DNA of 64,000 bases from Eubacteriales Family XIII. Incertae Sedis bacterium (GTDB lineage: Bacteria > Bacillota > Clostridia > Peptostreptococcales > Anaerovoracaceae), in the NCBI GenBank assembly GCA_031272365.1, contig JAISTX010000059.1, forward strand, positions 1 through 64,000. The letters are read 5' to 3'. The stretch's first letter is position 1; every line of letters begins with the position of its first letter. Below are positions 1,553 through 49,854 of this stretch, in pieces. Both the position numbers and the translations under genes were made by a program. The notes beneath the pieces are model-generated. The model saw only the letters and a program-made list of their open reading frames with translations. It did no database searches and had not been told where the DNA came from.

Positions 1553-4374
1553 TTCCCTTTTTCAACGAGTGCTTGATAACGTGTCATCAGGTCGGCTACG
1601 CAGTCGGCTTCGGACTGCCATTTGCCCCAGCCGCCGTAGAGCTTCATCACGGCCTTGTCCAGCGCTTGGTGGGCCCTGGTCAGCTCCGGCGGCATCGTGA
1701 GCGGGTCATAGAGGTCGGCGAGCGAGCTGTTTGGGAATAATAACCTTGCGTCGAGCACCCCCTGCGCGAGTGCGGCGATCTCCGCCTGCTGCGCCTCGTT
1801 CGCCTCCGGCCATGGGAAGTTGTTGTAAACGATATCTTTTGAATAACGATAATCGCTTTTCAGCCGCCCGGCCACCGCTCGCATCCACGCATTATGGACG
1901 TTGGATGTCAGGATGCCGAAGTGGTAGAGGGTCGCGCCGGGGATGAGAAACACGAGGTCGCTTGCAAACGTTTCAGGCGTGAGCATCCCGATGGGGATGT
2001 ACTTGCGCCGTTCGGAAGAGACTTTCGGAATGACAATATAGTTTTCCTTCGGCATGTTCTCCACATGGAAGCGCGTCGGCGTCTCGGCGAGCTTCCTCGT
2101 CGGGGCGCTCTTGCTCGCGAGGCGGAAGGCGCGCACCGCCTCCACGCGCCTCATCGCTTCCGGCATCGTGCGGAGCTCGTTGGGCGGGCAGTCGCCGAGC
2201 CACAGGCAGAAGCGTGTGTAGCCGTTGATGAACTCGTCCGACCCGATCCATGGGCGGAACCACTTCTCTGCCCGGGGCTCCGTTTTGAGGAAGGCGTCCT
2301 TCCCCTCGCGTGTGAACAGATAGTTCCCGCCGTCTATCGGTTTGTTGCCGATGCCGATGGGGGGCATGCCGCACAGCGGCTTCGCACGGCTCCCCACAAA
2401 GATGTTCGGCGCGAAAATCAGGTAGCCGTTGATGTTGGCAGGGAGCTCTTTGGATTCTCGGGACAAGCCCGAGAATGACGAGGTGGTGTTATCGTTGCCG
2501 AAAATCACACGCGGTGCGTCGTTTGCGGCGACCGAAAAGCCTACGATCACACAGTGCACCGCAGCCATGCCTTTGGCCTCGCTTTCCCATTTGAACGTGC
2601 GGTAGCCAAAGTCGATGTGGCACGCATATCCTGTGAGCAGAGCACCCCACAAGGTGGAAACGGATTCCCCTTGGCAAATGGAGTTTGTGGAGACGAAGGC
2701 GGCTCTGCAGTCCGTGCCCTGCATGAGCTGTGCCGCTTTGTAGTACCAGCCGCACACATAGTCCAGCGTCCCGACGCCTTTGATGGGTTTGCCATCCACG
2801 CCGAAGCAGACGCTTTCGATCTCGCGGCGCTGCTCATCCGTCTGGTATTTCGACCCCAGGAACGGCGGGTTCCCCATGATGAAGTCGTAGGGGCGGCCGC
2901 CCTCGGCTGCCCGCAACGCCCCCCAATCCATCCGCAGCGCGTTGCCGCAGACGATGTGGTGGTAGTCCACCAGCGGCAGGTTCACGATCCGCCGGCTGAG
3001 GATGCCGCTCGTCTCGATGTTGCTCTGGTGGTCGGCGATCCACAGCGCGGCGTTGGCGACGTTTACGGCGAAGTCATTGATCTCGATGCCGAAAAACTGC
3101 CCGACGTTCACCTTGACGCGCAGGTCCTCGAGCTCGAGCGAGAGCTGCCCGCCGGACACGAGCCGCCGCAGGATCTCGTTCTCTACGCCGCGCAGCTCGA
3201 TGTATGTCTGAGTCAGGAAATTGCCGCTGCCGCACGCCGGGTCCAAGAACGAAAGGGACGCGATCTCGTCCTGCAGCGCACGGAGCCTGGCCTTGTCCTC
3301 CCCGGCCTCGCGCAGCTTCGCTACGATGCCGTCGAGGAACAGCGGGTCGATGACTTTGCGGATGTTTTGCACGCTCGTGTAATGCATACCGCCCGCCCGC
3401 CGCTGCTCGCCGGACAGAATGGATTCAAAGATCGAGCCGAAGATGACGGGGGAGATGCCCGCCCAGTCAAACCGGTGGCTGCTGTCGTCGAGGATCTCGC
3501 GCTTGATCTCGTCCGTGAAGATCGGTATCTCGATCTCGCCCGCGAACAGGCCGCCGTTGACATACGGAAACTGCGCGAGCGTCGCGCCGAGGTAGGGGTC
3601 GCGCTGCTCCTTCGGCGTGTCCAGCACCTTGAACAGCGTCAACAGGGCTTCCCGGAAGCGGCCTTCGCCGGCGGGGACGTCCTTCAAATAGTTATAGAAC
3701 AGATTCTTCTCAAACAGGCCCGCGTCTTCAGCGTAGAGGCAGAAGAGGATGCGCACCATGAGGGCGGCCAGGTCGGCGCCGCTCCGGTCGGGGTCGACGT
3801 ACTGCTCCCGCACGAGCGCGTAGATGCGGCCGATGATGCCTGCGGCCTCCTTGCTGATTTTGACCTGGCGCTCGATGATGGCGTTGATCGGGTCAGTGAT
3901 GAAGTCGAACACCGACAGCTGGTCGGGCAGCTCCTCGAGGCGCACCGACACGGGGCTTAGGCCGCCCGGGTCGTTCCGGCGGTCGTAGATGAGGAAGGAT
4001 TCAAAATTCGATGTGATGATGAAGTCGGGGTATTCGGCCGGCGGCAGATACGAGGCGTAGCGCACGGCCTGCTCGTAAGGCGTGAGGTTTTCGTCGTCGC
4101 TTTGCCTGCCGGGTTTCGTCAGGTCGATGCCGAGGCTCTTCTGCTCGATCAGCACCTTGCTCGATGCGATGTAGGCGTCTATCCACTTCGTGGAGCGCCC
4201 GGCCTTGACGGGCTTCTGGTACTCGATCTCATGGAAGACGCGTTCGACGCCGAGCACCTCCATCAGGAACGAATTCCAAAACGTCTGGTCGTCGGCCTTC
4301 TCGCGGCCTTTGCCTTTCCAGTCCTCCGCAAATTTCCGCGCGTTCAGCAGCCGTTGTTCTGTGTCCAGCATCAT
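1549..4374 (-). CDS. MmeI-like (Type IIL/IIG) fused restriction endonuclease / N6-adenine DNA methyltransferase
   Basis: N-terminal PD-(D/E)XK-like DAYIASSKVLIEQKS; SAM motif I FLDPACGSGNFL; motif IV NPPFLGSK; C-terminal DYRYSKDIVYNNFPWP typical of MmeI-like enzymes. Confidence 0.85.
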   Translation of the reverse strand: MMLDTEQRLLNARKFAEDWKGKGREKADDQTFWNSFLMEVLGVERVFHEIEYQKPVKAGRSTKWIDAYIASSKVLIEQKSLGIDLTKPGRQSDDENLTPYEQAVRYASYLPPAEYPDFIITSNFESFLIYDRRNDPGGLSPVSVRLEELPDQLSVFDFITDPINAIIERQVKISKEAAGIIGRIYALVREQYVDPDRSGADLAALMVRILFCLYAEDAGLFEKNLFYNYLKDVPAGEGRFREALLTLFKVLDTPKEQRDPYLGATLAQFPYVNGGLFAGEIEIPIFTDEIKREILDDSSHRFDWAGISPVIFGSIFESILSGEQRRAGGMHYTSVQNIRKVIDPLFLDGIVAKLREAGEDKARLRALQDEIASLSFLDPACGSGNFLTQTYIELRGVENEILRRLVSGGQLSLELEDLRVKVNVGQFFGIEINDFAVNVANAALWIADHQSNIETSGILSRRIVNLPLVDYHHIVCGNALRMDWGALRAAEGGRPYDFIMGNPPFLGSKYQTDEQRREIESVCFGVDGKPIKGVGTLDYVCGWYYKAAQLMQGTDCRAAFVSTNSICQGESVSTLWGALLTGYACHIDFGYRTFKWESEAKGMAAVHCVIVGFSVAANDAPRVIFGNDNTTSSFSGLSRESKELPANINGYLIFAPNIFVGSRAKPLCGMPPIGIGNKPIDGGNYLFTREGKDAFLKTEPRAEKWFRPWIGSDEFINGYTRFCLWLGDCPPNELRTMPEAMRRVEAVRAFRLASKSAPTRKLAETPTRFHVENMPKENYIVIPKVSSERRKYIPIGMLTPETFASDLVFLIPGATLYHFGILTSNVHNAWMRAVAGRLKSDYRYSKDIVYNNFPWPEANEAQQAEIAALAQGVLDARLLFPNSSLADLYDPLTMPPELTRAHQALDKAVMKLYGGWGKWQSEADCVADLMTRYQALVEKGK
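2451..2479. repeat. Diverged REP-like palindrome inside the MmeI-like CDS
   Basis: tggATTCTCGGGacaaGCCCGAGAATgac; same frame sequence as 723-750 and 793-820. Confidence 0.7.
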
Positions 4375-6032
4375 GCCTCCTCTCTGGGCAGCTTGGGGGT
4401 GACGTAGAGGGTTTTGTTATTGGTGAAGATGACGTAGCCGGGTTTTGCGCCGGTGGGTTTTTTGACGTGGCGGGCTTTGGTGTAGTCCACGGGGACGCCT
4501 TCGGAGGCGCGGCCTTTGCTGTGGTAGGCGGCGATCCCGGCGGCTGCCCGGATGTCTTGGGCCTGCGCGTCTTCCGTAGGCTTCGCGGAGGGGGCCTGTT
4601 TCAGGATCACGTGGGAGCCGGGGATGTCCTTTGTGTGCAGCCACAGGTCGTCCGGGTTTGCGAAGCGCATGGTGAGCTCGTCGTTTTCGCGGTTGTTGCG
4701 GCCTACGTAGACGGTGCTGCCGGAGGGCAGGGTGTATTCGATGGGGGCGAAGTAGGCTTTGTGGAGCCCCCCCTTCTTGCCTTTCTTCTGGGGTTTGGCC
4801 TTTGCGCGGTTCCGCAGGATGCCGGCTTCCGTCAGCTCGTCGCGGATTTCCGCCACGTCGGCGGGCGTCTGGGCGGCCTCGAGCGCCCAGGCGGCGCTTT
4901 CCAGGTAGGCGATCAGGCGGTCCGCCTCCTCCCGCTGCTTCTCCTTCTCCACGGCGGCGGTTTTCTCCTTGCCGTATTTCTTATAATATTTCTGCGCGTT
5001 TTCGGCGGGGGTGAGGAGCGGGTCCAAGGCGATGGCGACGGGCGGGGCGCCTTCCTGCTCCCAGTCTTCGAGCGACGCTTCCTTCATGCCTTTTTCGAGG
5101 CGCCAGATGTTTGCGGTGAGGAGGTCGCCTTTGCGCTTCCATGCGTCCGCGTGCTTCGCCTTCTCGATTTCCTCTAGGAGGCGCTGCTTTTTCAGGTAGA
5201 GCTTGTCGAGACGCGCCTTCAGGGCGGCGGCGGTCTCCTTCGCCTTCTCGGACACGCGGGCGGCGCTCTCGCGGTTTTCGTACCAGGTCTGGAGCATCGC
5301 GCTCGCGCTTTCGAACGGCTCTGCCCGGAGGCCCTCCATGATTTTCAGGGGGAAGACGTGGAAGTCCTTTGCCTTGCCCTCCCCGTCGTACCAGATGGTG
5401 GGCGCGTAGGCGCCCTCCTGCGCCAGGGCGTCGTAGTGGGCGAGCGGCGGGCCGCCCGGGGCGGTCTCGGCCTCCATGAGGGGGCTTACGCCTTTCCCCG
5501 GCGGGGGCAGGGTGTAGGACAGGCCCGGCAGCACTTGCCGCACGCGGCTCTTGTCGAAAGAGATGCGTTTCACGGCGTCGAGGATTTTCTCCTCATCAGG
5601 ATTGTTATTGCGGTTGTCCGTCAGGATGAGGTTGCTGTGCTTGCCCATGAGCTCGAAGATGAGGGCGCGCGGGGTCTTGAGGCCGAGTTCGCTGGAGGCC
5701 TCGAGCTCGATGCGGACGATGCGCTCGCGGGCGGCCTGCGAGACGGAGAGGATCCGGGCGCCGACCAGGTGCTTGCGCAGCAGCATGCAGAAGGCGGGCG
5801 GGGTGTCCGGGCCGGCTTCGCGGCTGTCCGTCAGGTAGAAGGCGGGCTGGCTGCTGTCGGCGGAGAGGAAGAGGTTTTCGCGGGCGGCGGGGCGGCCGCC
5901 CGAGGGGGGGCGGTTGATGAGGAGCAGGATGTCCGCGCGGCCCGGCTGGTAGACGCGCTCGACCCGGCCGCCCACAAGGCGGCCCGCCAGTTCCCGCGCC
6001 ACCGCGCCCACAACGTAGTAGTCAAAAGCCAT
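4371..6032 (-). CDS. rqcH: NFACT family protein RqcH (Rqc2 homolog)
   Basis: MAFDYYVVGAVARELAGRLVGGRVERVYQPGRADILLLIN N-terminus and LWLHTKDIPGSHVILK C-terminal signature. ATG at 6032; TTG possible at 6035. Confidence 0.9.
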   Translation of the reverse strand: MAFDYYVVGAVARELAGRLVGGRVERVYQPGRADILLLINRPPSGGRPAARENLFLSADSSQPAFYLTDSREAGPDTPPAFCMLLRKHLVGARILSVSQAARERIVRIELEASSELGLKTPRALIFELMGKHSNLILTDNRNNNPDEEKILDAVKRISFDKSRVRQVLPGLSYTLPPPGKGVSPLMEAETAPGGPPLAHYDALAQEGAYAPTIWYDGEGKAKDFHVFPLKIMEGLRAEPFESASAMLQTWYENRESAARVSEKAKETAAALKARLDKLYLKKQRLLEEIEKAKHADAWKRKGDLLTANIWRLEKGMKEASLEDWEQEGAPPVAIALDPLLTPAENAQKYYKKYGKEKTAAVEKEKQREEADRLIAYLESAAWALEAAQTPADVAEIRDELTEAGILRNRAKAKPQKKGKKGGLHKAYFAPIEYTLPSGSTVYVGRNNRENDELTMRFANPDDLWLHTKDIPGSHVILKQAPSAKPTEDAQAQDIRAAAGIAAYHSKGRASEGVPVDYTKARHVKKPTGAKPGYVIFTNNKTLYVTPKLPREEA

Positions 6033-6205
6033 CAATGGGTATTATACAGCATACACACGTTGAAAGAATATTGAGCGGATGTGCGAAAGATGCACGAAAG
6101 AAATAGATGCCTATTTTGAACGGCAATGTGGTACTATTGCCTTAATGCGTAGATTCTCAACAGTTCAGGTGCAACAGCTGCTTGTGAAATAGCGATGGAT
6201 GCGTT

Positions 6206-7773: not shown

Positions 7774-7918
7774 GGCCGCGCGCTTCGGCGCAGATCGGAA
7801 CCGCAACGAGATCGGCTTCCTCGCGTACGCTGGTGCGCGGCAGGGGCCGGTTTTTTTATTCGGCGAATCCGTCGTTTCCAGACCGACGAGTTCGACTCCA
7901 GTGTGGTATAGTGAACCT

Positions 7919-8365
7919 ATGAGAGTTTACAGGGAGGAAAATGCGCTCGGGACGGTCGAGATCGACCGGCGCGTCGTCGAGAACCTCTGCGGGCGCGTCA
8001 TCGACGAGTTCGAGGGGCGGCTTTTGGTGTCCGGGCCGAAGGGCCGGCTGCGGCGCGGGGCGCAGAAGAGCCCGGAGGACGAGACGGGGTTCGTGCGCGC
8101 GCGCCTGAAGGGCGGGCGGATGAACATCAAGCTTTACCTCATCTTCCGGTTCGGCTCGAGCGTGAGCGACCTTGCGGTGGCGCTGGCCCAAAAGCTGCGC
8201 GGGGAGGTGCCGCGCGTGACGGGCGTCGAGGTGGGTCTCATCAAGATGGTCTTCGTCGGCACGCTTTCCGAGAAGGTATCGAAGCGCAGCCTCATCTACA
8301 TCGACGACGGGACCGGCGTGCGCGAGGTGCGGGATCCGGAGGAAGACGATTCGGCCAATGATTGA
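7919..8365 (+). CDS. Asp23/Gls24 (YloU-like) family protein
   Basis: Position between rpmB and recG; EIDRRVVENLCGRVI... and GVEVGLIKMVFVG fit the family. Confidence 0.6.
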   Translation: MRVYREENALGTVEIDRRVVENLCGRVIDEFEGRLLVSGPKGRLRRGAQKSPEDETGFVRARLKGGRMNIKLYLIFRFGSSVSDLAVALAQKLRGEVPRVTGVEVGLIKMVFVGTLSEKVSKRSLIYIDDGTGVREVRDPEEDDSAND

Positions 8366-15006: not shown

Positions 15007-15029
15007 GCCATTTGTGTTAAACTAAACGC

Positions 15030-15449
15030 ATGGAATTCAATAACTGCATCAACTATTTGCTCACAATCGCGCAGCACGCCGTGTTTGTGCAGACCAGCGA
15101 GAAGCTGGCCAAGTACGACATCACGCCGGGCCAATACGGCGTGCTGAACTACCTCTGGGAGAACGGCGACGCCACCCCCAAAGACCTCGCAGCGGCCTTG
15201 GCACTCGAAAACTCAACGGTTTCGGGCGTCCTGGACCGGATGCAGAAGAAGGGGCTCATCGACCGCAGGATCGACGAGGAGGACCGGCGCAGCGTGCGCA
15301 TCGCGCTCACGCCGAAGGGGGCCGCCCTGAAAAAGGACGTGCTCCAGGCAATCGAAGAGATGAACGAAGCCGTGCTCGGCGCGTTCGACAAAAAAACCGC
15401 GCAGACGCTGCTCGCCGCGCTGCGCGTGATCGGCAAGTCTGGCGGGTGA
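15030..15449 (+). CDS. MarR family transcriptional regulator
   Basis: ITPGQYGVLNYLWENG.. LALENSTVSGVLDRMQKKGLIDRRIDEEDRRSVRIALTPKG. Confidence 0.9.
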   Translation: MEFNNCINYLLTIAQHAVFVQTSEKLAKYDITPGQYGVLNYLWENGDATPKDLAAALALENSTVSGVLDRMQKKGLIDRRIDEEDRRSVRIALTPKGAALKKDVLQAIEEMNEAVLGAFDKKTAQTLLAALRVIGKSGG

Positions 15450-20164: not shown

Positions 20165-20202
20165 AGCCTCTGCCACCGCCTTGAATAGGATATGATGGAG
20201 AC

Positions 20203-21348
20203 ATGGACGCGCGGGCGAAGCTGTTTTTGCGAAGGGATCCGTACGACGCCGCCGGGAGCGCGGAGGCGTTCCTCTGCGCGGTGCGCGAGAACCTCGCGTG
20301 GCATGCCGCGCGCAACCCGGCGTACAGGCGCATCCTCGACGCGGAGGGCGTGGACGCCGGGATGATCCGGAGCGAGGGCGACCTCGCGCGGATTCCTGTG
20401 ATCCCGACGCTTTACTTCAAACGCAACCGCCTGTTCACCGTGCCCGAGGGCGCGCTCCGGGTGGGCGCCGCTTCGTCCGGCACGAGCGGCAGCAGGAGCT
20501 TCGTCGCCTTCGACGCGCCGAGCTTCCGCTACGGGCTGGCGATGGTGTTCTTCTTTTTCCTGCGGCACCATGTCCTCTCGCCGCTGCCGACGAACTACAT
20601 CGTGCTCGGGCCGAGGCCGGACAGGATCCTCGGGAGCGGCAGCGAGGAGGATACGGGCGCGGGCGCGGCGAAGACGGCCTACGGCACGACGAAGTTTGCG
20701 CCGGCCCTGCACCGCGAATACGCGCTGGAGATCACGCCGTCCGGCCCGCACGTCAACGAGGAGGGCGTCTCCCGCGCGCTCCTGCGCTACGCGAAGCAGG
20801 GCTTCCCCGTCCGCTTCGTCGGCCTGCCGCCCTATATGGCGTTCCTGCTCAGCGCCCTGCGCGAAAACGGCGTGAAGCTGCGGCTGAACCAAAAGTCGAA
20901 GGTCATCCTCGGCGGCGGCTGGAAGCAGTTTGCCTCCCGCGAGATCGACCGCGCGGAGTTTGCGGGGCTGCTGCGGGAGACGCTCGGGCTCGGGCCGGAG
21001 AACCTGCTGGAGTTTTACAGCGCCGTCGAGCACCCGATCCCGTACTGCAAATGCGCGCGCGGGCATTTCCACGTGCCGCTCTACAGCCGCGCGATCATCC
21101 GCGACCCTGTGACGCTCGCGCCGCTGCCGGAGGGGCGCGCCGGGCTGCTGAGCTTCGTCACGCCGCTCATGACGAGCCTGCCGCTGCTCTCCGTCGTCAC
21201 GGACGACCTCGCGGCGCTCCGCCCCGGCGCGGACTGCGGCTGCGGGATCCCCACGCCGTATTTCGACCTGCTCGGGCGGGCGGGCGCGGGCGGCGCCAAG
21301 ACCTGCGCGGCGGAGGCCGCCGAGCTGCTCGCGAAGGAGGCCGGCTGA
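20203..21348 (+). CDS. LuxE-like acyl-protein synthetase
   Basis: SEGDLARIPVIPTLYFK; AASSGTSGSRS adenylation motif; VEHPIPYCKCARGHFHVP. Confidence 0.85.
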   Translation: MDARAKLFLRRDPYDAAGSAEAFLCAVRENLAWHAARNPAYRRILDAEGVDAGMIRSEGDLARIPVIPTLYFKRNRLFTVPEGALRVGAASSGTSGSRSFVAFDAPSFRYGLAMVFFFFLRHHVLSPLPTNYIVLGPRPDRILGSGSEEDTGAGAAKTAYGTTKFAPALHREYALEITPSGPHVNEEGVSRALLRYAKQGFPVRFVGLPPYMAFLLSALRENGVKLRLNQKSKVILGGGWKQFASREIDRAEFAGLLRETLGLGPENLLEFYSAVEHPIPYCKCARGHFHVPLYSRAIIRDPVTLAPLPEGRAGLLSFVTPLMTSLPLLSVVTDDLAALRPGADCGCGIPTPYFDLLGRAGAGGAKTCAAEAAELLAKEAG

Positions 21349-24411: not shown

Positions 24412-27400
24412 ATGAAACTGTCGTTACGGATACTATTGCCGGTGCTCGCGGTGGCGATGCTGGCTTCGCTCTGCACCATGCAGGCGCAGCCGCGCGCATA
24501 CGCGCAGGACACCGGCGCGGGCGCGCAGCAGATACACAGCTTCCGGGATATCCCGGGCATCACGGAGGAGCAGGTCGCGGCCGTGGAGGCGGCGCTCGAA
24601 GGGCGCGCGTCGTTTTCGTACGGCATGCGCGACAGCTCGGAGTGCTTCGTCCGGGAGGACGGCAGCCTCGGCGGCTTCGCCGTGCTGCTCACGGACCGTC
24701 TGAGCGGGCTCTTCGGCGTGCCGTTTGAGCTGGAGCTCTGCGGCTGGCCGGAGCTCAGCGACCTCGTCCGGGAAGGGGCGGTCGATTTCTCGGGGGACTA
24801 CCGGCCGTCCGGCGACGCCGAAAAGAGCATGTTCATGACGGACACGATCGTGGAGCGCGCGGTGAAGATGGCGCGGCTCGAGGACGCGGCGCCGATCGAG
24901 AACATCGTGCAGGAGCGCCCCGCCCGCTTCGGCTTCCTGAAGGGCGCGGTCTCCCGGACGCTGATCGAGGGCAACCTGGAGGAGGGCTCGTACGAGATCC
25001 TGGAAGTGGAGGGCGCGCGCGACGCGCTCGCGAAGCTGCGCGCGGGCGAGATCGACCTCTTCGTGGCGGACAGCACGATCATCTCGACGCTGCTCACGGA
25101 GGAGGACGTCGAAGTCTCCAACTACACGCCGCTCACCTACAAGCGCGTCTCGATCACGACGGCGGACGAGAGCCTCGCGCCGGTCCTCGAGGCCATCGAC
25201 CTCTACCTGCAAAACGGCGGATTCGCGGAGCTCAGCGAATATTATTCGAAGGGCTACGAGGACTTTTCCCGCATGGCCTTCCTGAAAAGCCTGACCGCAG
25301 AAGAGCGCGCCTGGCTCGACGCGCATACGGGAGCCGGCGGCGCGCCCGTGCCGCTTGCCGTCAGCCCCGCCAACTACCCCGTCAATTTCTACAACGAGAA
25401 CGACGGCACGTGGAGTGGCATCGCGCTGGATGTGCTTGCGGAGATCGAGAAGATCACGGATATCCGGTTTGACATCGTGAACACGCCGGAGGAGGGCTGG
25501 CCCGTCGTCTTCAAGATGCTCGAGGACGGCGACGCCGCGATGGTCGCGGAGCTGATCCGCACGGACGAGCGCGAGGGGCGGTTCCTCTTCGGCCAGCCGT
25601 ACGCCAACGACCGGTACGTGCTGCTCTCGCGGACGGACTTCCCCGCCATCTCCATCAACCAGGTGCTCTACGCAAACGTGGGGCTGATCGCGGACACGGG
25701 CTTCATGGAGATGTTCCAGCAGTGGTTCCCCGACAACCACAACACGCCGGTGTACCCCAACATCTACGAGGCGTACGACGCGCTCGAGGCCGGCGAGATC
25801 GACTACGTCATGGCGACGGAAAACCGCCTGCTCGCCGTCACGAACTACATGGAGCGCTCCGGCTTCAAGATCAACCTCGTCTTCGACCACTCGTCGGACT
25901 CGCAGTACGGCTTCAACCTGAACGAGGGGACGCTGGCCTCCGTCATCGGCAAGGCGCAGCGGCTCGTGGACACGGAGGGGATCGCGAGCCTCTGGATGCA
26001 CATGACGTACGACTACGAGAAGTCGATCGCGCAGACGCGGACGCTGTACATGGTGCTCGTCGCCGCGCTGCTCGTCGCCGTCGTCCTCCTGCTCGTGCGG
26101 CGGCTCATGCTGAAACGCACGAGCGAGGCCGAGCTGCAGGCGCTCGTGAAGGAGCGCACGGTCGAGCTGGAAGCGGCGTCGAACGCCAAGAGCGATTTCC
26201 TCGCGAACATGAGCCACGAGATGCGCACGCCGCTGAACGCGGTCATCGGGCTCGCCGAGCTCTCCCTGTCGGAGGACGACGAGAAGGGCGGGCTCGCGGA
26301 GGACACGCGCGAAAGCCTGCAGAAGATCTACGGCTCCGGCGTGACGCTGCTCGGGCTCGTCAACGATTTGCTGGACCTGTCCAAGATCGAGTCCGGGAAG
26401 TTCGAGCTCGTGCCGATCGAATACGACGTGCCGAGCATGATCAACGACACGGTCACGCTGAACATCATCCGCATCGGCAGCAAGCCGATCGAATTCCGCG
26501 TGGACGCCGACCCAGGCCTGCCCGTGCGGATGTACGGCGACGAGCTGCGCATCAAGCAGATTTTCAATAATTTGCTTTCGAACGCCTTCAAATACACGAA
26601 GGAAGGGGAGGTGACGTGGAGCTTGCGCCAGGAAGAAGGCGGCGCGGAGGGCGAATGCGTCCTCGTCTCGGAGGTGCGCGACACGGGCATCGGCATCCGC
26701 CCCGAGGATCTCGCGAAGATCTTCGAGGAGTACAACCAGGTGGACACGAAGGCGAACCGCAAGATCGAGGGGACGGGGCTCGGCCTCGCGATCACGCGGC
26801 GCATGGCGGAGATGATGGGCGGCACGCTCGAGGCGGAGAGCGTCTACGGCGAAGGCAGCGTGTTCCGCCTACGGCTGCCGCAGAAGGTCATCAGCAGCAA
26901 GGGGATCGGCGAGCGGACGGCGAACAACCTCGCCTCCTTCCGCTACGGCGAGCGCAAGCTCGACCGCGGCCGGAAGATGACGCGCGTGCGCATCCCCTAC
27001 GCGAGGGTGCTCGTCGTCGACGACGTCGTGACGAACCTCGACGTCGCGAAGGGCCTCATGAAGCCGTACGGGATGCAGGTGGACACGGCGGAGAACGGGC
27101 GCGAGGCCGTCGAGCTCATCCGCCGCGGGGAGCCGCGCTACAACGCGGTGTTCATGGACCACATGATGCCGGAGATGGACGGCATGGAGGCGGTGCGCAT
27201 CATCCGCAGCGAGATCGGCACCCCCTACGCGGAGGAAGTGCCGATCATCGCGCTGACGGCAAACGCCCTCGTGGGCAACGACGAGCTTTTCCGGCAGAAC
27301 GGGTTCGACGATTTCCTGTCGAAGCCGATCGACATCATCGCGCTCGACGGCGCCATCCAGCGGTGGGTGCGCGACCGGGCGGAAGAGGAGCGCCTGGCGG

Positions 27401-28086
27401 CGGCGGGCGCGCTGCCGGGGGCGCCCGGCCCCGTGGCCGAGCATGGCGGCGGCGGCGGCGCGGGCGCGGACGCGGGCGCTGGCGAAGGCGAAGGCGCAGA
27501 CGGCCTCTTCGCCGGCCGCTGCGTGGAGGGCGTGGACCTGGAGGAGGGCCTGGCGCGCTTCGGCGGCGACGCTGAAGCCTACCTGGACGTGCTCGTGTCG
27601 TACGTGAAGAACACGGGGGCGATCCTGGACCGGCTCGAAGACCCCACGGGGGACACGCTCCCGGCCTACGGCATCGACGTGCACGGCGTCAAGGGCGCGA
27701 GCCGCAGCATCGGCGCGGACGGGATCGGCGCCCGCGCGGAGGCGCTCGAGCACGCGGCGAAAGCGGGCGACCTTGCGGCCGTGGAAAGGGACGGCCCCGC
27801 CTTCCTCGCGGACGCGCGCGCGCTCCTGGGCGCGCTCGGCGTCCTGACAGGGGAGCTGGCCGGGGCGGCGCAGGGCGGGAAGGAAATGCGCCCGGAGCCC
27901 TCCAAGGAAACCCTGGAGCAACTCCGCTGCGCGTGCGCGCAATTCGACGTCGACGCGGCGGAGGAGGCGATCGAGGCGCTGTCCTGTTATTCCTATGAAA
28001 GCGGGGGCGATCTTGTGCCCTGGCTGAAGGAAAGGGTCGCGATTTCCGATTTCAAATCTGTTGTACAAAAATTGGGCGGAGTGTGA
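24412..28086 (+). CDS. BvgS-like hybrid histidine kinase: two SBP_bac_3-like domains - TM - HisKA - HATPase - receiver - Hpt
   Basis: FLANMSHEMRTPLNAVIGLAEL (H box), GTGLGLAITRRM, VVDDVVTNLDVAKG...MDHMMPEMDG, C-terminal DVHGVKGASRSIGA (Hpt). Confidence 0.92.
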   Translation: MKLSLRILLPVLAVAMLASLCTMQAQPRAYAQDTGAGAQQIHSFRDIPGITEEQVAAVEAALEGRASFSYGMRDSSECFVREDGSLGGFAVLLTDRLSGLFGVPFELELCGWPELSDLVREGAVDFSGDYRPSGDAEKSMFMTDTIVERAVKMARLEDAAPIENIVQERPARFGFLKGAVSRTLIEGNLEEGSYEILEVEGARDALAKLRAGEIDLFVADSTIISTLLTEEDVEVSNYTPLTYKRVSITTADESLAPVLEAIDLYLQNGGFAELSEYYSKGYEDFSRMAFLKSLTAEERAWLDAHTGAGGAPVPLAVSPANYPVNFYNENDGTWSGIALDVLAEIEKITDIRFDIVNTPEEGWPVVFKMLEDGDAAMVAELIRTDEREGRFLFGQPYANDRYVLLSRTDFPAISINQVLYANVGLIADTGFMEMFQQWFPDNHNTPVYPNIYEAYDALEAGEIDYVMATENRLLAVTNYMERSGFKINLVFDHSSDSQYGFNLNEGTLASVIGKAQRLVDTEGIASLWMHMTYDYEKSIAQTRTLYMVLVAALLVAVVLLLVRRLMLKRTSEAELQALVKERTVELEAASNAKSDFLANMSHEMRTPLNAVIGLAELSLSEDDEKGGLAEDTRESLQKIYGSGVTLLGLVNDLLDLSKIESGKFELVPIEYDVPSMINDTVTLNIIRIGSKPIEFRVDADPGLPVRMYGDELRIKQIFNNLLSNAFKYTKEGEVTWSLRQEEGGAEGECVLVSEVRDTGIGIRPEDLAKIFEEYNQVDTKANRKIEGTGLGLAITRRMAEMMGGTLEAESVYGEGSVFRLRLPQKVISSKGIGERTANNLASFRYGERKLDRGRKMTRVRIPYARVLVVDDVVTNLDVAKGLMKPYGMQVDTAENGREAVELIRRGEPRYNAVFMDHMMPEMDGMEAVRIIRSEIGTPYAEEVPIIALTANALVGNDELFRQNGFDDFLSKPIDIIALDGAIQRWVRDRAEEERLAAAGALPGAPGPVAEHGGGGGAGADAGAGEGEGADGLFAGRCVEGVDLEEGLARFGGDAEAYLDVLVSYVKNTGAILDRLEDPTGDTLPAYGIDVHGVKGASRSIGADGIGARAEALEHAAKAGDLAAVERDGPAFLADARALLGALGVLTGELAGAAQGGKEMRPEPSKETLEQLRCACAQFDVDAAEEAIEALSCYSYESGGDLVPWLKERVAISDFKSVVQKLGGV

Positions 28087-28099
28087 TATATTATCCCGT

Positions 28100-28444
28100 A
28101 TGGAATGCATTTTTTGCAAAATCATAGACGGGGAAATTCCATCCAATAGGGTATACGAGGATGAAGAGGTCCTTGCGTTTCGCGATGCGCAGCCGCAAGC
28201 GCCGGAGCACGTGCTCATTGTGCCGAAGCGGCACATCGCATCCTTGGATGAAGTTGGGGAGACGGATGCAGACAAGCAATTGTTGGGGCACCTTGTTGCA
28301 AAGGTGGGGCAGATTGCAAAAATGCTCGGGCTTGAGAACGGCTACCGACTCGTGTGCAATTGCGGCGAGGAAGGGCAGCAAACCGTGAGGCATCTACATT
28401 TTCATCTCCTCGGAGGGAGGCAGATGACGTGGCCACCGGGTTAG
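28100..28444 (+). CDS. HIT family protein (histidine triad)
   Basis: MECIFCKIIDGEIPSNRVYEDEEVLAFRD..; HLHFHLLGGRQM. Confidence 0.95.
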   Translation: MECIFCKIIDGEIPSNRVYEDEEVLAFRDAQPQAPEHVLIVPKRHIASLDEVGETDADKQLLGHLVAKVGQIAKMLGLENGYRLVCNCGEEGQQTVRHLHFHLLGGRQMTWPPG

Positions 28445-30388: not shown

Positions 30389-30568
30389 ATGGCACAGGTG
30401 ATCGTGCGTGAGAACGAGACCCTCGAGAGTGCGCTGAAGCGGTTCAAGCGCTCTTGCGCCAGGGACGGCGTGATGTCCGAATTGCGCAAGCGGGAGCACT
30501 ACGAGAAGCCGAGCGTACGCCGGAAGAAAAAGTCCGAGGCGGCGCGCAAAAAGGCTCGCAAGTATTGA
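30389..30568 (+). CDS. rpsU: 30S ribosomal protein S21
   Basis: [59 protein letters not shown]. Confidence 0.97.
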
Positions 30569-30572
30569 ACAA

Positions 30573-30598
30573 AAAATCCCCGGTGCGCCGGGGATTTT
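30573..30598 (+). terminator. Rho-independent terminator after rpsU
   Basis: aaaatCCCCGGtgcgCCGGGGatttt. Confidence 0.8.
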
Positions 30599-30613
30599 GT
30601 TATACTATCCCTA

Positions 30614-31578
<965 letters not shown>

Positions 31579-31582
<4 letters not shown>

Positions 31583-43904: not shown

Positions 43905-46900
43905 ATGCTGGAGCGCTGGCAGGGTTTGACGGAAACGCAGGCGGCGCCGGTTTTCGCCGCGTGGGCCAAGCGGGAGGGCATCGGGCGGTGCGTCGTGGTG
44001 GCGGCGAGCGGCGGCGCCGCGGCGGCCTTCGCGAAGGACGCCGCGTTTTATTTGCGGGAGGAAGGGCTTCCGGGCATGCGGGTGATCGCGCTGCCCGAGG
44101 ACGACCCGCCGTTCCTGCGCGTGGAGGCGAAGAGCCGCGACGCGGAGCTGGCGCGCAGCGCGGCGCTGGAGGCGCTGGCCTCCCCGGAAGGCGGTTGTGC
44201 CATCGTGTGCCCGGTGAGCGCGGCGCTCTCGCCCGTGCCGCCGCGCGAGGCGTTCTTGTCGGCGCGGGTCGAGGTCAGGCTGGGGGCGGGCACGGATCCG
44301 GACGCGCTGAAGCGGCAGCTGTCCGAAGCGGGCTACGTGCGCGCGCCGTACACGGAAAACCCCGGCGAGTTCAGCGTGCGCGGCGGCATCGTGGACGTCT
44401 GGCCCCTGCCGGCGCCCTGGCCCGTGCGCATCGAGTTTGCCATGGACGAGGTGGAGTCGCTGCGCACCTTCGACCCCGAGACGCAGATGACGCGCGGGCG
44501 GCTGGAGGGGGGCGCCGTGGTGTGCCCGCCCGCAGGCCCCGGGCAGGAGGCGGTGCCCGGCGCGGCCCAAGGCCCGGGGCGCGCATTCCTGCCGGACTGG
44601 CTCGGCGGGGGCGGCCGCCTCGTCGTGCTGGACCCCGTGCGCGTCCGGCGGGCGCTGGACCTGCGCGAGGCCGAGGCGCTGGTGGACTACACGGCGCTCC
44701 TCGAGGAAGGCGAGGCCGGCGCGGGCGACTGGGACGGCTTCGCGAAGAAAGAGGACTGGGAGCGGCTCGTCGCCCGCCACGAAACGGTGGAGGCTGCGCC
44801 GGAGGGGCAGGGCTTCGAGGCGCGGCAGCCGGCGCCCCTGCACGGGCAGATGGACCTGCTCGCGGCGGAGCTGAAGGCCTACCTGCGCAAGGGCTTCAGC
44901 GTGACGATCGTCTGCGCGACGCGGGAGCGCAAGGAGAAGCTCGCGGGTTTCCTGGACCAGGAGAAGCTGTCGGGCAAGGTGGCGCTCGCGGAAGGGGAGG
45001 TCACGGCCGGCGTGGAGCTGTCCGGGGGCGGCTGGCGCAAGGCCTGGCTCTGGGACGGCGACATCTTCAAGAGCGAGCGCAAGCGCCGCAAGCAGGGCCT
45101 GCGCGGGCGCGAAAAGATCGACGCGTTCACGGACATCGAGAAGGGCGACTACGTCGTGCACGAGCGGCACGGCATCGGTGTCTTCCGCGGCATCAAGACC
45201 ATCGAGGCGTACGGGGGCGGGCGCGACTACTTGATCATCGCGTACGCGGGCAAGGACGTGCTGTACATCCCCGTCGAGCAGATGTCCTCCGTGCAGCGCT
45301 ACATCGGGGCCGGCGAGAAGCGCCCGCGCGTGAGCCGGCTCGGGACGGGCGACTGGTCGCGCACGAAGGCGCGCGTGCGGAAGGAGGTCGAGGAATACGC
45401 CTCCGAGCTCATCCGGCTCGCGGCGGAGCGCAAGCTCGCAAAGGGCCACGCGTTCGCGCCGGACACGGTCTGGCAGAAGGACTTCGACGACCGCTTCCCG
45501 TGGGAGCCGACGGCGGACCAGCAGCGCTGCTTCGACGCCGTGCGCCGCGACATGGAGCAGCCGTGGCCGATGGACCGGCTCATCTGCGGCGACGTCGGCT
45601 ACGGCAAGACGGAGGTCGCGCTGCGCGCCGCGTTCAAATGCGCGCAGGAGGGCAAGCAGGTCTGCATGCTCGTGCCGACGACGATCCTCGCCCAGCAGCA
45701 TTTCCGCACGTTCGAGGAGCGCTTCGCCGACTTCCCGATCACGGTCGAGATGCTGTCGCGCTTCCAGACGGCCGCCAAACAGACGGAAGTGTTCCGCAAG
45801 GCGAAGGACGGCGACGTCGACATCGTCATCGGCACCCATATGTTATTGTCCAAAAAAATGCGCTTCCGGGACCTCGGGCTGCTCGTGGTCGACGAGGAGC
45901 AGCGCTTCGGGGTGCGGCACAAGGAGCGCATCCGCGCGCTGAAGGCGGGGGTGGACGTGCTGACGCTGACGGCGACGCCGATCCCGCGCACGCTGCATAT
46001 GTCGCTCATCGGGCTCAAGGACATGGAGCTCATCGAGGACCCGCCCGAGGACCGGCACCCGGTGCGCACCTACGTCTCGGAGGAGCGGGCGGACGTCATC
46101 GCCGAGGCCATCCGCCGGGAGCTCGACCGCGGCGGCCAGGTCTACATCGTCTTCAACCGCGTCGAGGGCATCGAGCGCGTCTACGAGAAGATCGCCGCCC
46201 TGGTGCCCGGCGCGCGCACGGCGGTCTGCCACGCGCAGATGAACGAGCGGATGATCGAGGAGATCATGCTCGGCTTCGCGGAAGGGGACACGGACGTGCT
46301 GATCTCGACGACGATCATCGAGTCCGGGCTCGACATCCCCAACGTCAACACGATCCTCATCCTGGACGCGGACCGGCTGGGGCTGACGCAGCTGTACCAG
46401 CTCCGGGGCCGCGTCGGGCGCTCGAGCCGCATCGCGTTCTGCCACCTGTTCTACCGGAAGGACAAGGTGCTGACGGAGGCGGCGGAGAAGCGGCTGCGGA
46501 CGATCCGCGAGTTTACGGAGCTCGGCAGCGGCTTCAAGATCGCGATGAAGGACCTCGAGATCCGCGGCGCGGGCAACCTGCTCGGCGTGAGCCAGCACGG
46601 GCACCTCGCCTCGGTCGGCTACGAGATGTACTGCAAGCTGCTCGAGGAAGCCGTTTTGAAATTGAAAATGGTGGCTGGTGGGGATGGAATAACGGAAGGC
46701 GGCGTGCGGGCGCCCGATGCGGAGGACGGCGCCCTTGACGGGCACGAGGCGAAGATCGACGTGCGCTTCGCCGCCGTGATCCCCTCCGCCTATATCGAGG
46801 ACGACGTCGTGAAGCTGTCCGCGTACAAGCGCATCGCGCAGATCCGCAGCGAGGAGGAGGTGGAGGCGGTGCTGTCGGAGATGGACGACCGCTTCGGCGA

Positions 46901-47207
46901 AGCGCCCGCGCCCGTGCGGAACCTGGCGTGGATCGCGCTCGCGAAAAGGGGCGCGGACGCGGCGGGGCTCGCCGAGGTCGACATCGAGCGCACGCGCGCG
47001 CTGCTCACATGGGAAAGGCCGCCGGGGGATTTCGCGGAGCGCGTTTTCCGGGCGTCGGAGGCCGTGCACGGGCTGGGCGCGAAGCTCGAGACGGACGTGA
47101 AGTCCGCCGTGCCGAAGCTGCGCCTCTATTTCAGCGCGGGCGCGGACGAGGAGCGCAAACTGCGCGAGGCCGCCGCACTTTGCGCGGCACTGGGCGTGCC
47201 ACTATGA
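43905..47207 (+). CDS. mfd: Transcription-repair coupling factor
   Basis: YVVHERHGIGVFRGI; CGDVGYGKTEVALRAAF; RGRVGRSSRIAFCHLFY. Confidence 0.96.
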   Translation: MLERWQGLTETQAAPVFAAWAKREGIGRCVVVAASGGAAAAFAKDAAFYLREEGLPGMRVIALPEDDPPFLRVEAKSRDAELARSAALEALASPEGGCAIVCPVSAALSPVPPREAFLSARVEVRLGAGTDPDALKRQLSEAGYVRAPYTENPGEFSVRGGIVDVWPLPAPWPVRIEFAMDEVESLRTFDPETQMTRGRLEGGAVVCPPAGPGQEAVPGAAQGPGRAFLPDWLGGGGRLVVLDPVRVRRALDLREAEALVDYTALLEEGEAGAGDWDGFAKKEDWERLVARHETVEAAPEGQGFEARQPAPLHGQMDLLAAELKAYLRKGFSVTIVCATRERKEKLAGFLDQEKLSGKVALAEGEVTAGVELSGGGWRKAWLWDGDIFKSERKRRKQGLRGREKIDAFTDIEKGDYVVHERHGIGVFRGIKTIEAYGGGRDYLIIAYAGKDVLYIPVEQMSSVQRYIGAGEKRPRVSRLGTGDWSRTKARVRKEVEEYASELIRLAAERKLAKGHAFAPDTVWQKDFDDRFPWEPTADQQRCFDAVRRDMEQPWPMDRLICGDVGYGKTEVALRAAFKCAQEGKQVCMLVPTTILAQQHFRTFEERFADFPITVEMLSRFQTAAKQTEVFRKAKDGDVDIVIGTHMLLSKKMRFRDLGLLVVDEEQRFGVRHKERIRALKAGVDVLTLTATPIPRTLHMSLIGLKDMELIEDPPEDRHPVRTYVSEERADVIAEAIRRELDRGGQVYIVFNRVEGIERVYEKIAALVPGARTAVCHAQMNERMIEEIMLGFAEGDTDVLISTTIIESGLDIPNVNTILILDADRLGLTQLYQLRGRVGRSSRIAFCHLFYRKDKVLTEAAEKRLRTIREFTELGSGFKIAMKDLEIRGAGNLLGVSQHGHLASVGYEMYCKLLEEAVLKLKMVAGGDGITEGGVRAPDAEDGALDGHEAKIDVRFAAVIPSAYIEDDVVKLSAYKRIAQIRSEEEVEAVLSEMDDRFGEAPAPVRNLAWIALAKRGADAAGLAEVDIERTRALLTWERPPGDFAERVFRASEAVHGLGAKLETDVKSAVPKLRLYFSAGADEERKLREAAALCAALGVPL

Positions 47208-47220
47208 TATAATTCATCCT

Positions 47221-49854
47221 ATGTCTGATGAGTACAACAACGATTCGCTCTTAGAACTATATCTATACGAATCCACTTCCCTGCTTGAGTCGCTGGACGG
47301 CGTTTTGCTTGACGCGGAAAAGGGGAGCGATCTTTCCAAGGACAACATCAACGAGATTTTCCGCATCATGCATACGATCAAGGGCAGCAGCGCGATGATG
47401 GCCTTCAACGGCATCGCGGACGTCGCGCACACGGCGGAGGATCTGTTCTCCATCATCCGGGAAAGCGGGCTGCCGGATGGGTATATGGACGATCTGGTCG
47501 ACATCGCGCTCGCGGTGTCGGATTTCCTCAAGGCCGAGGTGGACAAGGTGCAGCAGGGCGCGGAGCTCGAGACGGGCGTCGAGCCTTTGACGCAGAAGGT
47601 CGCGGCGCTGGCGGGCAAGATCCGCGAGGAGGTGGGCGAGCCGGAGGTCGTGGACCTCGGGCGGATCCTCGGCGGCATCGACGCGCCGCCGCGCGAGCCG
47701 GTGCGGCAGCCGGAACCGGCGTACACGAAGGTGCCCGAGCCCGTGATCATCGACGTCGCGCCGGAGGACCTGATGCCGGTCGCGCCCGAGGGGGGCCGCA
47801 TCCTGGGGCTGGAGCCGGACGGGAGGCAGGGCGCGCGCCCTGCGGCGCCTGCCGAACCTGCCGGGGAGCCGGCTGCGGGCGAAGAGGCCGGGCCTGCCGG
47901 GGAGCCGGCTGCGCCCGAAGAGGCCGCGCCACCCGCGCCGCCTGAGTCGCCTGCCGCGCCCGAAGGGGCCCGGACGCCCGGGGACGGCGCGCGGGACCTG
48001 CCGCAGGCGGACCTTTCCCGCGTCACGGAGAGCGTGCGCAACGCGGCGGGCAGCGGGCTCGCGGAGCCGGGCACGTATTTCCTGCACGTGCATTTCAACG
48101 AGGGCTCGAAGATGGAGAACATCCGCGCCTTCATGCTGGTGAACAAATTGGCCGAGAAGGGCACGGTGGGGCGCACGATCCCCGCGAACGTGGAATCCGA
48201 CCCCGACGCGGCGGCCGTGATCGCGGAGAACGGGTTCTACCTCAGCTACACGACGACGCTGTTCCGCGAGCAGATCGAGAAGCTTGCGAAGGGCACGCTG
48301 TCCGTGGAGTCGGTGTCCTTCGTGCGCAGGCTGCCGGAGGACCCGAACGCGCGGCAGGAAGCGGCCGCGGAGCCGCCGAAGCCAGCGCCCCGCCCAGCCC
48401 CGCGCGTAGGGGCGGATGGCAATCCGCCGGTCCCCGTAGGGGCGGATGGCAATCCGCCCGCCCACGTAGGGGCGGATGGCAACCCGCCGGTCCCCGTAGG
48501 GGCGGATGGCAATCCGCCCGCCCACGTAGGGGCGGATGGCAATCCGCCCGCCCAAGCCCCCGCGCCCCCGCCCGCCCCCGTAGGGGCGGATGGCAATCCG
48601 CCCGCAACAGCCCCGGCGCCCCCCGCCCCCCCCGTAGGGGGGGATGGCAATCCGCCCGCCCCCACCGTGGTACAGCACCCCGCGCCGGCGCAGAGCATCA
48701 TCAGCGTCGATTTGAAAAAACTCGATGCGCTGCTCGACCTCGTCGGCGAGATCGTGATCAACGAATCCATCGTGACGGAAAACCCCGACATCAAAGGGAT
48801 GGAGCTGCCAAATTTCCTGAAGGCCTCCCGCCGGCTCGACAAGCTGACGAGCGAGCTGCAGGACACGGTCATGGCCATCCGGATGCTGCCCGTGAGCATC
48901 GTCTTCCAGAGGATGCGGCGCATCGTGCGCGACATGGGCCGGGACCTGGGCAAAGAGGCCGAGCTCGTGCTCATCGGGGAGGCGACGGAGGTGGACAAGA
49001 CCATCCTGGACGCGATCGCCGACCCGCTCATGCACCTCGTGCGCAACGCGATGGACCATGCGATCGGCACGGCGGCGGAACGGGTGGCGGCGGGCAAATC
49101 CCCCACCGGCCACATCATACTCTCGGCGCAGAACAGCGGGGGCGACGTGATCATCTCCGTCACGGACGACGGCAGGGGGCTTGACAAAGGGGCGATCCTG
49201 GCGAAGGCGCGCGAACGCGGCTTGCTGCGCAAGCCGGAAGAGACGTATTCGGACCGGGAGGCCTACGGGCTGCTCATGACGCCGGGGTTCTCCCTGAAGG
49301 ACAGGGTGACGGAATACTCGGGGCGCGGCGTCGGCCTGGATGTGGTGAAGACGGGCATCGAGCGCATCGGGGGGGCGGTCATCGTCGAGAGCAAGCCGGG
49401 GCAGGGCACGCATATCATGCTCAAGATCCCGCTCACGCTCGCGATCATCGAATGCATGGAGGTGCGCGTCGGGGAGAGCGTGTTCTCGATCCCGATCACG
49501 GGCATCCGGGAGTCGTTCAAGGCGGACGCGGGCGAGCTGATCCGGGACCCCTCGGGGGGCGAGATGATCATGCTGCGCGGCGAGCTCTACCCGATCCTGC
49601 GCCTCGCGGAGCTGTACGGCGAGCCCGGCGCCAAGGAGGACATCCACAGCGGCATGCTCGTCCTCGTCGACGCGGGCGACAAGCCCATCTGCCTGTTCGT
49701 CGACGAGCTCGTGGGGAAATTCCAGGTGGTCGTGAAGCCGCTCCCGAAATACCTCGCGCGCTTCCGCAAGGGGCGGACGGGCATCTCCGGGTGCACGATC
49801 ATGGGGAACGGCTGCATCAGCCTGATCCTCAACGTGCAGGAATTGGCGGGCTGA
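47221..49854 (+). CDS. cheA: Chemotaxis histidine kinase CheA with an expanded repeat linker
   Basis: Hpt IMHTIKGSSAMMAF; LVRNAMDHAIG; GRGVGLDVVKTGIERIGG; CheW-like C-terminus. Confidence 0.95.
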   Translation: MSDEYNNDSLLELYLYESTSLLESLDGVLLDAEKGSDLSKDNINEIFRIMHTIKGSSAMMAFNGIADVAHTAEDLFSIIRESGLPDGYMDDLVDIALAVSDFLKAEVDKVQQGAELETGVEPLTQKVAALAGKIREEVGEPEVVDLGRILGGIDAPPREPVRQPEPAYTKVPEPVIIDVAPEDLMPVAPEGGRILGLEPDGRQGARPAAPAEPAGEPAAGEEAGPAGEPAAPEEAAPPAPPESPAAPEGARTPGDGARDLPQADLSRVTESVRNAAGSGLAEPGTYFLHVHFNEGSKMENIRAFMLVNKLAEKGTVGRTIPANVESDPDAAAVIAENGFYLSYTTTLFREQIEKLAKGTLSVESVSFVRRLPEDPNARQEAAAEPPKPAPRPAPRVGADGNPPVPVGADGNPPAHVGADGNPPVPVGADGNPPAHVGADGNPPAQAPAPPPAPVGADGNPPATAPAPPAPPVGGDGNPPAPTVVQHPAPAQSIISVDLKKLDALLDLVGEIVINESIVTENPDIKGMELPNFLKASRRLDKLTSELQDTVMAIRMLPVSIVFQRMRRIVRDMGRDLGKEAELVLIGEATEVDKTILDAIADPLMHLVRNAMDHAIGTAAERVAAGKSPTGHIILSAQNSGGDVIISVTDDGRGLDKGAILAKARERGLLRKPEETYSDREAYGLLMTPGFSLKDRVTEYSGRGVGLDVVKTGIERIGGAVIVESKPGQGTHIMLKIPLTLAIIECMEVRVGESVFSIPITGIRESFKADAGELIRDPSGGEMIMLRGELYPILRLAELYGEPGAKEDIHSGMLVLVDAGDKPICLFVDELVGKFQVVVKPLPKYLARFRKGRTGISGCTIMGNGCISLILNVQELAG
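48406..48660. repeat. Seven copies of GTAGGGGCGGATGGCAATCCGCC palindrome within cheA
   Basis: Copies begin at 48406, 48436, 48466, 48496, 48526, 48580 and 48634 (30,30,30,30,54,54 bp spacing); encode VGADGNPP(VP/AH). Confidence 0.95.

Follow-up and report, generated by a model that had tools for sequence, protein, structure and literature searches.

Leaderless initiation is an established mechanism in Actinobacteria, Deinococcus and some Lactobacillales. In a survey of bacterial genomes, a TA-like (Pribnow) signal was identified approximately 10–12 nt before the start of leaderless genes (Zheng et al., 2011; PMC3160421), and such genes were described in 56 of 209 genomes of the Firmicutes, where they are concentrated in Lactobacillales and Mycoplasma (PMC3160421). 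In the low-GC Lactococcus, the box is preceded by a strong TG, the signal of high-GC genomes is a loose TAnnnT, and Actinobacteria contain on average ~19% leaderless genes (PMC3160421). In mycobacteria, either ATG or GTG serves as the leaderless start codon (PMC4633059). In the mapped Clostridia, 15 leaderless genes were reported for C. difficile (PMC7438776), 7 for Sporomusa (PMC12456013), about 2% for C. autoethanogenum (PMC6873888) and 2–3% for solventogenic species (PMC9045289), and in C. phytofermentans 4% of the intergenic transcription start sites (TSSs) were classified as "potentially leaderless", most of which keep a ribosome binding site (PMC5171806). These few cases agree with a preliminary description of the DNA analyzed here, according to which leaderless mRNAs are little noted in Clostridia, and no paper was found in a literature search for leaderless genes in Anaerovoracaceae.

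The stretch of DNA under study (hereafter the window; 64 kb) corresponds to contig 34 of the 2.92-Mb draft assembly of a gut-type clostridium in 88 contigs, which has a GC content of 64% in the 840 kb sampled. The relatives of its CheA protein are from Clostridiales Family XIII metagenome-assembled genomes; a 16S gene was not found in the assembly with a pattern search and the Rfam 16S model. Six genes in the window had been proposed to start 6–8 nt downstream of a -10 hexamer, five of them with a TGn extension and none with a Shine-Dalgarno (SD) sequence. All six sites read as proposed, with the extension at five and an SD at none, and the Pfam domains agree with all six gene names.

The cheA gene (47221–49854, plus strand; Pfam Hpt, P2, H-kinase_dim, HATPase_c and CheW) is predicted to be leaderless, with the ATG located 7 nt past the hexamer of an extended -10 element, TGA TATAAT, at 47205–47213 (TGA-TATAAT-tcatcct-ATG, 47205–47223), and the N-terminus of its product, MSDEYNNDSL, agrees with those of relatives. 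The HIT-family gene (28100–28444, plus strand; Pfam HIT), the phoH gene (30614–31582, plus strand; Pfam PhoH), the Asp23-family gene (7919–8365, plus strand; Pfam Asp23) and the marR-family gene (15030–15449, plus strand; Pfam MarR) are also predicted to be leaderless. They are preceded on the same strand by TGA TATATT at 28084–28092 (TGA-TATATT-atcccgt-ATG, 28084–28102), TGT TATACT at 30598–30606 (TGT-TATACT-atcccta-ATG, 30598–30616), TGG TATAGT at 7904–7912 (TGG-TATAGT-gaacct-ATG, 7904–7921) and TGT TAAACT at 15015–15023 (TGT-TAAACT-aaacgc-ATG, 15015–15032), respectively. The sixth gene, rqcH of the NFACT family (4371–6032, minus strand; Pfam NFACT_N), has the hexamer TATAAT at 6041–6046 on the minus strand (TATAAT-acccattg-ATG, 6046–6030); the hexamer follows CTG, with the TG adjacent rather than in the TGn position, and the predicted transcript would be leaderless or carry a leader of 1–2 nt. 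Among 200 dinucleotide-shuffled versions of the window, the pattern TGnTAWAnT-N6-7-ATG, which was observed 5 times, had a mean of 0.03 and a maximum of 1, and TAWAnT-N6-8-ATG, which was observed 6 times, had a mean of 0.79 and a maximum of 4. At the gene at 20203, a TATGAT was seen 6 nt before the ATG, with a GGAG that overlaps the spacer (20188–20205), so that this gene may belong to either class.

To extend the analysis to the genome, 40 stretches were sampled in addition to the window, giving 840 kb in total or 29% of the genome, and 663 reliable genes were called with a home-made dicodon coding-potential script that is blind to upstream signals. We scanned for -10-like hexamers, defined as TA[TAC][AG]NT, at every spacing from every in-frame candidate start, and used as controls the reversed pattern, a shifted spacing (N12-13), out-of-frame ATG, the codons GTG, TTG and CTG, and dinucleotide shuffles of the upstream regions. 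At spacings of 6, 7 and 8 nt before in-frame ATG codons, 36, 12 and 7 hexamers were identified, as compared to approximately 4 per spacing elsewhere. No spacing peak was obtained in the 840-kb sample for out-of-frame ATG or for GTG, TTG or CTG in any frame; with 1 and 0 hexamers at spacing 6, GTG and TTG were below expectation. For the called ATG starts, 24 hexamers were observed at spacing 6, as compared to 1.9 ± 1.5 (maximum 6) in shuffled upstream regions, and 36 at spacings 6–8, as compared to 6.2 (maximum 15). The count of -10 boxes located 9–18 nt before starts was 16, against an expectation of 20.9 ± 4.4, a depletion that is not significant. In the whole assembly, TATAMT-N6-7-ATG was found 119 times, as compared to 22 for the reversed pattern and 30 for the N12-13 spacing, and TGnTATAMT-N6-ATG was found 31 times, as compared to 0 when reversed; the genome-wide enrichment for which a count had been suggested in the preliminary description is thus present. 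The excess amounts to approximately 38–44 of the 663 sampled genes, or ~6% (about 1 in 16), which by scaling gives an estimate of roughly 130–150 genes in the assembly.

A sequence logo of 35 sites shows that the hexamer is TATAAT or TATACT, that the T and G of TGn are present in 28 and 26 of the sites, respectively, that an additional T is located upstream of TGn in 24, and that the base directly before the ATG is C in 20. No clear -35 element was seen in this logo. The TRTGn extended -10 is a familiar promoter element in Gram-positive bacteria, and the sites have its characteristics: TGn one base before TATAAT and a -35 that is weak or absent. Transcription usually starts at the seventh base after the -10 hexamer, with C/A as the usual -1/+1 pair. 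A spacing of 6 would put the expected +1 on the A of the ATG, with a pyrimidine at -1 and a purine at +1 as is typical of start sites, while at spacings of 7–8 the +1 would be located 1–2 nt before this A.

The same genome contains an ordinary SD class, with a clear peak 6–9 nt upstream of the starts in the 840-kb sample. An SD at the start was identified in 202 of 599 other genes, as compared to 0 of 36 leaderless-type genes (p = 1e-6), and the two coexisting initiation classes that had been suggested from the window are thereby recovered as an SD peak and a separate, SD-free class with the extended -10 at 6–8 nt. Gene names in the leaderless-type set were assigned by eye from the translated N-termini, and from Pfam for genes in the window. 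The set includes ftsK, pcrA, ligA, murE, trmD, tmk, hisF, surE, lysA, cheA and phoH, of which trmD, ligA, ftsK and pcrA are essential, and is thus not limited to accessory functions. An added signal in the second codon was not indicated, since no difference from SD genes was observed.

Several of the promoters overlap with the end of the preceding gene. In 4 of the 36 cases, a small number, the TGA that ends the preceding gene also serves as the TGn of the promoter: in cheA (preceding gene 43905–47207), HIT (preceding gene 24412–28086), surE and one more gene. In two further cases, including trmD, the preceding gene ends with a TAA that would, judging from the gap of 7 nt, be part of the TATAAT. 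This sharing of bases lets a gene follow another by 7–14 nt and still have its own promoter. Because trmD, cheA and HIT are located directly after a gene on the same strand, leadered read-through transcripts probably also exist for genes of this type. In the case of phoH, a GC-rich hairpin, ccccggtgcgccgggg, followed by attttgtt is located directly before the extended -10 (window 30566–30606), so that the apparent terminator of the upstream gene would run into the phoH promoter; both congeners (G079 and G134) also have a hairpin at the equivalent position, as does G014 from a neighboring genus. The phoH gene of G014 has the arrangement TATACT-N6-GTG, a possible leaderless GTG start, unlike the source genome in which only ATG is used.

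We compared the source genome to its two congeners, in both of which the leaderless arrangement recurs. In the 518 kb of G134 that were read, 19 and 12 hexamers were identified at spacings 6 and 7, as compared to a background of 4.7. Under a strict rule, the architecture is kept in G134 by 5 of 9 orthologs of leaderless-type genes, as compared to 3 of 68 other genes (p = 3e-4), and under a relaxed rule, which was set after the strict result, by 7 of 9 versus 3 of 68 (p = 2e-6); with the shifted-spacing control, the count was 0 of 9. The phoH gene is also leaderless-type in G079, where it reads TGCTATAAT-gttttcg-ATG (N7), as compared to TGTTATACT-atcccta-ATG in the source genome, and both the spacer and the flanking bases differ between the two. 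The trmD gene is leaderless-type in the source genome and G134, but not in G079 or in other genera, and HIT is leaderless-type in the source genome and G134, but SD-led in most other genera. Among the congeners, rqcH is leaderless-type solely in the source genome, and not in G079 or G134, with one more case in a genome from another genus (G032). Many relatives use SD leaders. It follows that the architecture is conserved within the genus, yet easily gained and lost.

Most of the Clostridia that were checked with the spacing control showed the arrangement weakly or not at all. The counts of TATAMT at N6-7 versus N12-13 before ATG were 90 and 12 in G079 and 65 and 42 in G134, the ratio was 1.3–2.0 in neighboring genera, and it was about 1 in several AT-rich Clostridia. 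Among 388 genomes drawn from across the class, the source genome was among the highest for the TGn form, as judged from the reversed control only, which is unreliable in AT-rich genomes. An example is G403, in which TGnTATAMT-N6-ATG was found 34 times versus 5 when reversed, yet without a spacing peak and with counts of 313 versus 270 under the spacing control. Since the reversed pattern can mislead in this manner, we relied on the spacing controls. Separately, in three genomes of an unrelated clostridial genus, g258 of family f78 (G446, G564 and G530), TATAMT-N6-7-ATG was 2.4–3.1-fold more frequent than the pattern with shifted spacing, and genus g258 is a possible independent case.

Taken together, it is very probable that this genus has a regular, AUG-only class of leaderless genes, amounting to ~6% of the genes, beside a normal SD class. 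According to this model, transcription would be driven from extended -10 promoters (TRTGnTATAAT) with the +1 at the A of the ATG or 1–2 nt upstream. Where the +1 coincides with the A, the primary transcript would begin with AUG and lack an SD, and ribosomes would load at the 5'-terminal AUG itself, as they do on the leaderless mRNAs of other bacteria. Genes would switch to and from the SD-led architecture between related genera. A more far-reaching version, which we consider conceivable but doubtful, is that the compact TRTGnTATAAT-N6-ATG module, sometimes fused to a stop codon, constitutes a regular AUG-only class including essential genes to which the translation apparatus is probably tuned.

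Start regions are locally richer in A and T, and at 64% GC such islands might by base composition yield TATAAT-like words. The peak was however absent in the dinucleotide shuffles, the reversed patterns, the shifted spacings and the out-of-frame and non-ATG controls, by which an origin by chance is refuted, and we assign it a negligible probability. The promoters could also be real while the true start is located downstream, behind an ordinary SD leader, with the upstream ATG misread as the start, and a home-made gene finder may indeed pick wrong starts. We consider this very unlikely, given that an in-frame start with an SD was identified in the next 30 codons of 0 of the 36 leaderless-type genes, as compared to 66 of 599 others, and that the proposed starts fit the N-termini of the families in comparisons with relatives, with HIT, PhoH, RqcH and TrmD (MKIDILTLFPEM) aligning from residue 1. 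Misread starts would moreover leave the peak at in-frame ATG only unexplained.

It could alternatively be argued that the transcripts come from promoters further upstream or from operon read-through and are translated independently of an SD, in which case the A/T-rich box would act not as a promoter but as an enhancer that is unstructured or binds S1. Many of the leaderless-type genes closely follow a neighbor on the same strand, as would be expected from such an arrangement. An enhancer of this kind would, however, need neither TRTGn, nor an exact hexamer, nor a 6-nt spacing with counts that fall sharply at 5 and 9 nt, and the first 30 or 45 nt are predicted to fold no differently than in SD genes, which makes this explanation improbable. 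Leaderless initiation from an extended -10 promoter is thus the preferred interpretation.

The source genome would represent a lineage of Clostridia with a predicted use of leaderless initiation that is regular and not sporadic, and which adjoins close relatives without it, so that gains and losses can be traced gene by gene. The phoH, HIT and trmD genes, which are leaderless-type in the genus (trmD not in G079) but have an SD leader, or at least no leaderless architecture, in other genera, are examples of this. Methods that call starts from SD sequences will miss or misplace such starts in uncultured gut genomes, including those of essential genes.

A clostridial lineage with such a regular predicted use of leaderless genes is new relative to the literature searched. 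The signal, its spacing and the absence of an SD are as in the leaderless genes of the earlier survey, but the source genome retains a well-formed TGnTATAAT or TGnTATACT at 64% GC instead of TAnnnT (PMC3160421). Like in mycobacteria and other Actinobacteria, a 5'-terminal start codon at the +1, which is here predicted, occurs without an SD beside SD genes and in housekeeping genes; in mycobacteria, however, ATG or GTG is used (PMC4633059), whereas only ATG peaks in the source genome, and its share of ~6% is lower than the actinobacterial average (PMC3160421). In the mapped Clostridia, 7 to ~70 genes or 2–4% of the TSSs are leaderless and the ribosome binding site is often kept, as compared to ~6% of the genes predicted from sequence in the source genome, with an SD in none of the 36.
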